Part shown: positions 20,474 through 22,279 of the stretch, in pieces | How positions within the stretch are numbered: position 1 is the first letter of the stretch | Layout: every line of letters starts with the position of its first letter | Origin: Rhizobiales bacterium NRL2 | Lineage (GTDB): Bacteria; Pseudomonadota; Alphaproteobacteria; Minwuiales; Minwuiaceae | Direction of reading: 5' to 3' | DNA: 64,000 bases | NCBI GenBank assembly: GCA_001664005.1 | Contig: CP016093.1 | Coordinates: forward strand, 3,183,001 to 3,247,000 | Position numbers and translations under genes: made by a program | The notes under the pieces: model-generated | Seen by the model: the letters and a program-made list of their open reading frames with translations, nothing else | What the model was told of the DNA's origin: nothing | Database searches by the model: none

Positions 20474-20965
20474 CTACTCCGCCGCCTGGGCGCCGGCCAT
20501 GGCGCGCGGCATCTGCCCGCGGATGATGTAGGCCAGCGCCTGCACCACCTGCTCGGGCTCCCGGGCGACGGCATTGGCCGCGCCGTCGACTTCCTTCAGC
20601 GCATGATCGTGCTGTTCCGGATGCAGGGTGATGTAGGGAATGCCCACCGCGGCCGCAAAACCGGCGTCGAAGGCGGCATTCCACTGCTTGTACTTCTCCC
20701 CGAAGCGGACGACGACAAGGTCCGCCTCCCGGATGAGCGTCTGTGTGCGCATGGCGTTGAGCTGCGCGCCCTTGCGGTCGTGCCAGAACTTGTCCGGTTC
20801 GGCCCCGAAGATCGCGACGCCGCAATCGTCGGAGTCCTCGTGGACGGTGATGGGCGCGCTCAGATCGACCGGCAGGCCGGCCTCGGCAATGCCGCTCTCG
20901 ATCCGCTCGCGCCAGTCGCTGTGGATTTCGCCCGACAGATAGACGTTCCAACGCTTCTCGCTCAT
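20474..20965 (-). CDS. YtoQ family protein
   Basis: 163 residues beginning MSEKRWNVYLSGEIHSDWR, with RTQTLIREADLVVVRFGEKYKQWNAAFDAG in the middle; this is the YtoQ family, with a nucleoside 2-deoxyribosyltransferase-like fold but no established reaction. GAGGAGCG precedes ATG 20965; the longer open frame upstream overlaps the divergent gene and is unconvincing. It is divergent from the halohydrin dehalogenase-like gene with a 160-base gap that may hold both promoters. Confidence 0.82.
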   Translation of the reverse strand: MSEKRWNVYLSGEIHSDWRERIESGIAEAGLPVDLSAPITVHEDSDDCGVAIFGAEPDKFWHDRKGAQLNAMRTQTLIREADLVVVRFGEKYKQWNAAFDAGFAAAVGIPYITLHPEQHDHALKEVDGAANAVAREPEQVVQALAYIIRGQMPRAMAGAQAAE

Positions 20966-21125
20966 GGTTTCGCTCCTCGTTGGCATGGTTTCCCGCACTA
21001 TGGCTGGTGCGGCCTCCGGTTCCAACCGGCAGGGCGCGCGGCGGTTCCATCCCGGCGCGCCTTCATCTAGCTTCGGGCGGTCGACACCGCCTTTGCGCCA
21101 GGATCCGTCTTCCGGGAACCGAACC

Positions 21126-21791
21126 ATGACCAAGCGAACCGCCCTCGTCACCTGCGCCGAGCGCTATATGGGCCCGGCGATCGCCCGCAGGTTCGAGGAG
21201 CTCGGTATTGACGTGATCCGGGGCGGCGAGCCCATGAAGAGCCAGGCCGAATGCGAGGCGCTGGTCGCGGAGGCAGGCCGGATCGACATCCTGGTCGCCA
21301 ACCTGGCCGAGCCGCCGATGACCGGGCCGGTCGAGGCGATCGACAATGCGGACTGGCGGAGGCTGTTCGAATCCATGGTCGATCCGCTGATGTATGTGGT
21401 CCGCGCGGTGGTTCCACAGATGCGGGAGCGGCGGTCGGGCCGGATCATCGCCGTGACCAGCGCGGCGCCGCTGCGGGGCATCCCCAACAACGCCGCATAC
21501 TGCGCCGCGCGCGGCGCGCAGAACGGCTTCATCAAGGCCCTGGGGCTCGAACTGGCGCGCGAGAACATCCAGGCCAACGCCATCGCGCAGAACTACATCA
21601 ATAACGACACTTATTATCCGGACGACATTCTGGACAACGCGAAGTTCCTCGAGCACGTCAAACGCAACGTGCCGACCAACCGCGTGGGCGCGGCCGAGGA
21701 AACCGCAGAACTCGCCGCCTACCTCGCCAGCGAACGATGCAACCACATGGTCGGCCAGGTCATCCCCCTGGCCGGCGGCTGGGCGACCTGA
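21126..21791 (+). CDS. Halohydrin dehalogenase-like short-chain protein
   Basis: 221 residues in the short-chain dehydrogenase fold, but without the NAD(P)-binding GxxxGxG. Instead it has Thr9-x4-Tyr14-x-Gly16 (TCAERYMG), the halide-pocket signature, and the triad Ser112, Tyr125 and Arg129 in S-x12-Y-x3-R spacing. Both are the diagnostic motifs of halohydrin dehalogenases, which close vicinal haloalcohols to epoxides and run the reverse with azide, cyanide or nitrite. Asn156-Tyr157 matches the conserved Asn-Tyr of the halide site, and the HVK...GQV...LAGG end also matches HheC-type proteins. An ordinary SDR would have Lys at 129. The next gene follows by 8 bases. Confidence 0.8.
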   Translation: MTKRTALVTCAERYMGPAIARRFEELGIDVIRGGEPMKSQAECEALVAEAGRIDILVANLAEPPMTGPVEAIDNADWRRLFESMVDPLMYVVRAVVPQMRERRSGRIIAVTSAAPLRGIPNNAAYCAARGAQNGFIKALGLELARENIQANAIAQNYINNDTYYPDDILDNAKFLEHVKRNVPTNRVGAAEETAELAAYLASERCNHMVGQVIPLAGGWAT

Positions 21792-21799
21792 GGCGTGTC

Positions 21800-22279
21800 A
21801 TGACCCGCATCTTCGTCGACGCCGACGCCTGCCCCGTCAGACAGGAGGTCGAGCGCGTGGCCGCGCGGCACGGGCTGGAGGTCTACGTCGTTTCCAATGG
21901 CGGCCTCAGACCCAGCCGCGATCCGCTGGTGCAGACGGTAATCGTCGCCGAGGGCGCCGACGCCGCCGACGACTGGATCGCCGAGCGCGCCGGACCGGGC
22001 GACATCTGCATTACAGGCGACATACCGCTGGCCGGCCGCTGCCTGGAGCGGGGCGCGATGGCCATCCGCCACAACGGCGACGCCTTCACGCCCGACAACA
22101 TCGGCGCCCAGCTCGCGGCGCGGAACCTGATGGCTGACATCCGCGCGGCCAATCCCCTCTGGACCGGCGGCGGCGGCCGCCCGTTCGCCAGGGCGGACCG
22201 CTCGCGCTTCCTCGACCGGCTGGAGCGGGTGGTGCAGGCCGTGCGGAAACTGTCCGGCCCGCGCGACGACGGTCCCTAG
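21800..22279 (+). CDS. YaiI/YqxD (DUF188) family protein
   Basis: 159 residues opening MTRIFVDADACPVRQEVERVA, the invariant start of the YaiI/YqxD family, and later GDICITGDIPLAGRCLERGA and RNLMADIRAANP. The fold resembles PIN/NYN nucleases with conserved acidic residues, but activity is not established. ATG 21800 is 8 bases after the dehalogenase-like gene, so the two may be cotranscribed. The stop overlaps that of the convergent gene by four bases. Confidence 0.88.
   Translation: MTRIFVDADACPVRQEVERVAARHGLEVYVVSNGGLRPSRDPLVQTVIVAEGADAADDWIAERAGPGDICITGDIPLAGRCLERGAMAIRHNGDAFTPDNIGAQLAARNLMADIRAANPLWTGGGGRPFARADRSRFLDRLERVVQAVRKLSGPRDDGP

Follow-up and report, generated by a model that had tools for sequence, protein, structure and literature searches.

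The 64,000-nucleotide stretch of Rhizobiales bacterium NRL2 that was analysed (contig CP016093.1, positions 3,183,001 to 3,247,000; hereafter the window) contains an open reading frame whose product carries the sequence motifs of halohydrin dehalogenases (HHDHs), between a YtoQ family gene and a DUF188/YaiI gene (Table 1). The coding sequence starts at the same position in the window gene and in the orthologues shown in an alignment in which loci were cut at match starts. Its GC content (66.7%) and GC3 (88.3%) are like those of its surroundings, so that, judged by composition, any gain of the gene was not recent. No dehalogenation or epoxide hydrolase gene was found among the window ORFs scanned with Pfam, which were 43 of 58 selected ORFs and YtoQ. 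The original prediction had described a lone gene, and this holds for the window, where YtoQ and DUF188 genes flank it; many of the orthologues have a conserved neighbourhood. A gene for an SprA-related family protein (PF12118; 18339-19301, minus strand) also lies in the window and is unconnected with the HHDH-type gene.

Table 1. Positions of the HHDH-type gene, its diagnostic segments and its neighbours in the window.
Feature	Position	Strand	Basis or remark
HHDH-type coding sequence, 221 aa plus stop	21126..21791	+	ORF translation
Motif 1, T9-CAER-Y14-M-G16	21150..21173	+	Nucleophile pocket, where the NAD-binding Gly motif would sit; definition from passages of PMC11976700 and PMC4989007
Motif 2, S112-x12-Y125-x3-R129	21459..21512	+	Catalytic triad, Arg replacing the SDR Lys
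Loop Q155-N156-Y157-I-N-N-D-T-Y163-Y164-P165	21588..21620	+	Aligned with HheC PNYL...YFYP and HheD2 QNFVDNPTYFP; putative halide-pocket role
C-terminus LAGGWAT, without HheC-type extension	21768..21788	+	Sequence; comparison with HheB (DGGWAT)
YtoQ family gene, divergent neighbour	20474..21004	-	TIGR03646 above cut-off, PF11071
DUF188/YaiI gene, downstream neighbour	21800..22279	+	NF001095 above cut-off, PF02639

A pattern check on the 221-residue translation confirmed that both HHDH motifs are present at the residues originally named and that the Gly-rich nucleotide motif is absent; neither short-chain dehydrogenase (SDR) pattern, TG-x3-G-x-G or Y-x3-K, was found. The Asn-Tyr pair at 156-157 was present, as had been claimed. 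None of 20 ordinary-SDR ORFs compared carried either HHDH motif, and all 20 had S...Y-x3-K, indicating that the occurrence of the motifs in the window protein is more than chance. Motif 2, with Arg in place of the catalytic Lys, occurred in all 44 ORFs of the clade formed by the window protein and its orthologues, and motif 1 in 41 of them; in the other three, Ser replaced the Thr, a base was ambiguous or the ORF was truncated, in one case each. Residues G16, S112, Y125, R129, N156, Y163 and P165 were invariant in a 35-row alignment comprising 29 of the 44 available clade rows and six others. In the HHDHs that have been studied, Ser holds the substrate hydroxyl, Tyr takes the proton and Arg lowers the pKa of Tyr, while the nucleophile pocket occupies the position of the nicotinamide site of SDRs (passages of PMC4989007). 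Tyr14 of the window protein stands at the position of HheC Phe12 and HheB Tyr19; the F12Y change in HheC gave up to five-fold higher activity and an apparent melting temperature raised by 10 K (excerpts of PMC11976700). The same motif pair had retrieved 37 HHDH genes from databases, with activity confirmed for a selected 19 after expression, and 26 further sequences followed (parts of the 2016 review PMC4989007). Together with the 42 clade loci found here in one scan, these make the earlier view that few such enzymes are known a dated one.

Pfam assigned an SDR domain alone to the window protein, and none of the best 25 of 204 NCBIfam models exceeded its own cut-off. Automatic annotation would therefore most likely label it an SDR oxidoreductase, as had been foreseen. 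A phmmer search of the PDB ranked its relatives differently. The leading matches were HheD2 (7b73; 2.6e-55), HheD8 (8xxb; 1.4e-52) and HheB (5b12 and 4zd6; about 1e-41), and the best entry that was not an HHDH by name or title was 2hq1 (3.9e-25, among the best 60 of 510 matches). Within these same best 60 of 510, HheD2, HheD8, HheB, 6a41 and five HheC entries stood above the first ordinary SDR, and HheA, HheG and one HheC variant lay among the ordinary SDRs. The window protein was 43% identical to HheD2, 42% to HheD8, 40% to HheB, 37% to 6a41 and 35% to HheC, the last figure being no higher than that of one of two SDR controls (33 and 36% in local alignments).

A tree of 41 rows was built from 16 of the 44 clade sequences, five HHDH references, 13 SDR controls from the window genome and related genomes, and seven others; HheA, HheG and type E were not among its rows. 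The clade was recovered with support of 95/92 and, joined by the sequence from locus L010, was the sister group of HheB plus HheD (98/96); HheB joined the D types at 98/87, leaving the window clade outside that pair. An AlphaFold model of the window protein, computed with the 35-row alignment as input, had a pLDDT of 87.1 and a pTM of 0.87. Its best VIA matches were HheB (Z 32.3), HheD8 (32.1), HheD2 (31.4) and 6a41 (29.8); NAD enzymes followed from Z 29.5 down, with HheC variants among them, the first at rank 25 (Z 28.8). With Foldseek, rows 1-16 were all HHDHs or 6a41.

Could the protein nevertheless be an ordinary NAD(P)-dependent SDR oxidoreductase with accidental motif matches? The generic SDR models of Pfam and NCBIfam match it, two SDR controls share 33 and 36% with it in local alignments, and NAD SDRs come close to the HHDHs in the VIA comparison. 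Against this, the Gly-rich motif is absent and Arg stands for the catalytic Lys throughout the clade, and B- and D-type HHDHs rank above all SDRs shown, by sequence as well as by fold. The tree sets the clade with the HHDHs, apart from the 13 NAD-type controls, at a fork with support of only 83/52; placement inside the NAD-dependent SDRs, the outcome that the original prediction had named as counting against it, was looked for there and not seen. We therefore consider an NAD-dependent SDR very improbable and rejected it on motifs, tree and fold. The motifs, the phmmer ranking, the tree and the fold lead us instead to regard the window protein as HHDH-type, on its own branch beside types B and D, and the candidate originally put forward is thus supported by the motifs, the nearest solved structures, the predicted fold and the tree. 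It is likely to be a halohydrin dehalogenase-type enzyme with an SDR fold, in which the NAD pocket has been turned into a small-anion pocket. As to its subtype, type E HHDHs come from marine gammaproteobacteria, and many carriers of the clade are gammaproteobacterial by their record titles, so the clade might be published type E, with nothing new at the subtype level. Subtypes D to G were already defined by 2014-2016 (passages of PMC4989007), and five of 43 reported HHDHs were gammaproteobacterial (excerpts of PMC6922532). On the other side, no recognisable type E entry was present in the best 60 of 510 PDB matches. We put the chance that the clade is type E a little short of even. The sequence comparisons make it probable that the protein is a new HHDH of the established family, its subtype being either unnamed or type E.

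Membership of the other named types closest to the window protein was considered and rejected. HheD2 and HheD8 resemble it in both motifs, in the AQN-x4-TY[FY]P loop, in predicted fold and in the GGW ending, but they form a separate branch of the tree and have Phe in motif 1 where the window protein has Tyr; moreover, its identity to these two D sequences, the only ones compared, falls below the 57-95% at which HheD19-HheD38 match verified D enzymes (parts of PMC4989007). HheB (PDB 4zd6, 5b12) shares the motif 1 Tyr, a similar length (227 residues) and the GGWAT ending with the window protein, and is its best fold match; it differs in having AQHW in place of AQNY, is only 40% identical and groups with type D, the clade lying outside. 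HheC (PDB 1pwx) has the motif pattern and the Asn-Tyr of the halide loop in common with the window protein, but its C-terminal extension with Trp249 is absent from the latter, which stops at LAGGWAT. The HheC-like ending claimed in the original prediction was accordingly abandoned, the terminus resembling the DGGWAT of HheB, and type C was rejected. Other relatives from the window organism's class were also seen. L011:1501-2271 (genome G008, of the window genome's family), L012, L013 and L015 carry both HHDH motifs with Phe in motif 1, are 35-40% identical to the window protein and fall on the tree branch of 6a41 and HheC. L014 has Trp at the Phe/Tyr position of motif 1, and L020 has motif 1 and lacks motif 2.

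Members of the clade share 64-98% identity with the window protein. From genome contigs, one scan yielded 42 loci (64-81% identical) that, by their titles, belong mostly to gammaproteobacterial MAGs and in a few cases to alpha- and betaproteobacterial ones; the description of orthologues as marine is a reading of isolate names in record titles. The clade is common in one gammaproteobacterial family. Among seven genomes drawn from the window's genus, the gene was found in two, G000 and G004 (98%). In G001, G002, G003 and G005 the YtoQ and DUF188 genes adjoin in another arrangement, and the HHDH gene was neither between nor beside them in the 3.5 kb seen. This gene-free arrangement in four congeners fits acquisition of the HHDH gene with local rearrangement in the G000/G004 line; loss from the other congeners is a possible alternative. 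A search of viral contigs gave one 19-residue match alone, and a plasmid search one relative (40%), from Novosphingobium resinovorum.

As part of the conserved neighbourhood of the orthologues, a DsbA/FrnE-type ORF lies upstream of the HHDH gene, on its strand, in 33 of the 44 loci. In all 33 (L050:4378-4998 is one example) this ORF begins directly after an in-frame TGA, which stands at the first Cys of the CPWC expected from FrnE-like proteins, and it is accompanied by a SECIS-like hairpin that is conserved. At codons +6 to +10 after the TGA a single codon was used at each position among rows sharing the amino acid (32 or 33 of 33), and the excess codon homozygosity was 0.46 over +1 to +13 as against 0.11 over +14 to +93. 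The hairpin was present in the minimum-energy fold of 31 of the 33 sequences, with the stem UCAGUAC/GUAUUGA or a near variant, L038 and L047 folding differently. Stem changes on both sides keep the hairpin in other lineages, for example in L092, L093 and L098. With a strict pattern, the UPWC start was found in 26 of 34 loci and the hairpin in 25 of these 26 (L106 being without it), the loop being shorter in six.

A tRNA-Sec scoring at least 59 bits was found in 34 of the 41 genomes that hold the loci. Five of the seven without one at this threshold carry the UGA gene, and genome incompleteness is a possible reason for the missing tRNA-Sec in the seven. Taken together, the in-frame UGA, the constrained codons, the hairpin and the tRNA-Sec indicate that the gene upstream of the orthologues very probably encodes a FrnE/DsbA-like selenoprotein with UPWC, in which U is a predicted selenocysteine. 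As the UGA cuts the reading frame, automatic gene calls probably lose its N-terminus. The predicted protein has the PF01323 domain and the U-P-W-C in common with the DsbA-like selenoprotein (UxxC), and its nearest solved relative is FrnE. The DsbA-like form 1, UxxC, is among the selenoprotein families listed in a 2026 review (excerpts of PMC13188914); one limited literature search revealed no case of such a selenoprotein being coupled to an HHDH-type gene, its single match being a paper on a Rhodococcus genome. No such selenoprotein was detected at E 1e-20 in the window genome and six congeners. For tRNA-Sec, the window genome's best match scored 49.1 bits against a cut-off of 47 and was rejected, being tRNA-Ser(CGA) by ARAGORN.

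The firmness of this pairing was assessed in 137 genomes of one family, which was chosen because it holds a carrier and is taken as gammaproteobacterial because of the titles of its member loci. The UGA gene was present in 67 genomes and the HHDH gene in 54; 52 had both, 15 the selenoprotein gene alone, two the HHDH gene alone and 68 neither. Thirteen of these 68 have a Cys form of the upstream gene, and none of the 13 has the HHDH gene. The Fisher value for co-occurrence was 2.5e-21, a figure that ignores relatedness. By match coordinates, 44 of 56 HHDH copies follow the selenoprotein gene on its strand at a distance of up to 300 nt; six others lie at 0.3-6 kb, four on another contig and two in selenoprotein-free genomes. 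Given the first start codon, the two reading frames share 4 nt in 13 of 33 loci. Of the two HHDH-only genomes, L108 has a FrnE-like stretch (40%) next to the gene, and L109 has none in the 5.5 kb seen. In each of the 15 family genomes where a full HHDH is missing, a CoA-ligase or CoA-transferase gene comes after the selenoprotein gene, and L105 shows an HHDH remnant. The selenoprotein and CoA genes are thus kept without the HHDH, which has a fixed place but behaves as optional there.

Outside the family the association was looser. Within a 385-genome sample of the window's class, the sole carrier of the clade HHDH was the window's own genome (E 1e-75), and it was not one of the 15 genomes in which the selenoprotein was found (E 1e-55). 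Among 293 genomes sampled across an order, three had both genes, all of them known carriers, one had the UGA gene alone, two the Cys form alone and one the HHDH alone. No such selenoprotein was detected at E 1e-20 in the carriers L063, L065, L066 and L067. Both genes also occur in three MAGs with alphaproteobacterial or Rhodospirillaceae titles, on different contigs and not adjacent in the stretches seen. An obligate HHDH-selenoprotein pair was considered but not favoured, since 15 of 67 selenoprotein carriers in the family and 15 of 15 in the class sample are without the HHDH. In the three MAGs just mentioned (L082:728-1669, L083:1794-2729 and L084), an Abhydrolase_3 gene, and not an HHDH gene, comes after the selenoprotein gene; compared with the Abhydrolase_3 gene of L083, the others show 69% and 98% identity. 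No match to it was found in the stretches fetched from 13 of the 15 genomes of the window's class that carry the selenoprotein.

On the convergent side of the 44 orthologous loci there were genes for CoA-transferase III (34 loci), acyl-CoA dehydrogenase (26), a MaoC-type hydratase (21) and the AMP-dependent CoA ligase family (12). The best NCBIfam model for the CoA-transferase III was 2-methylfumaryl-CoA isomerase, at 563 bits with a cut-off of 725. In L050:5680-6891 and 33 further loci it is closely related to 2-methylfumaryl-CoA isomerase of known structure (PDB 7xkg, 8apq; E about 1e-157), and in many loci the MaoC-type hydratase and acyl-CoA dehydrogenase genes stand beside it.

What was observed for the window protein is its motifs, its family placement and its predicted fold; its chemistry we infer by analogy with studied HHDHs. 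Ser112 would hold a vicinal haloalcohol, from which Tyr125, activated by Arg129, would remove the proton. The alkoxide would then close to the epoxide, and the halide would exit into the pocket that motif 1 and the loop at residues 155-165 make up. In the reverse direction, the enzyme would open epoxides with halide, azide, cyanide or nitrite. The gammaproteobacterial orthologues may well act beside a selenocysteine-containing FrnE/DsbA-like redox protein, and the enzyme of the window genome would act without a selenoprotein partner.

What such an active site does in nature can be read in more than one way. The natural reaction might be something other than dehalogenation, for instance opening or closing of an epoxy-carboxylic or epoxy-acyl compound, with the HHDH and the selenoprotein both serving a catabolic locus. 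In the orthologous loci the gene is often flanked by the selenoprotein gene on one side and by the convergent CoA block on the other, and further physiological functions of HHDHs are conceded as possible in passages of PMC4989007. However, the CoA-ligase or CoA-transferase gene also stands beside the selenoprotein gene in the 15 family genomes without a full HHDH, so the HHDH may merely share the place; the CoA block is on the opposite strand from the HHDH gene, and the window genome is without the selenoprotein partner. We hold this reading as possible and tentative, at about one chance in three. Somewhat less likely still, in our judgement, is a reading in which the clade ranks as an HHDH subtype, found mainly in ocean bacteria, and has a natural role linked to a thioredoxin-fold protein that contains selenocysteine. 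The HHDH and this UPWC protein would then act on one reactive substrate, which might be a halohydrin or an epoxide of marine origin; one of them might deal with the epoxide and its partner with a thiol/selenol or redox step. Of the pair, the window organism would have the HHDH half only.

HHDHs are valued biocatalysts; as regards their role in nature, only two known HHDH genes were in an operon with an epoxide hydrolase gene (parts of PMC4989007). The clade adds dozens of candidate enzyme sequences that would otherwise be annotated as SDR oxidoreductases. Dozens of carrier genomes, with a conserved and partly overlapping probable selenoprotein gene, provide a concrete context in which the role of HHDHs can be tested. 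If the tie to the selenoprotein is real, it would give HHDHs a natural setting other than the breakdown of man-made halohydrins.
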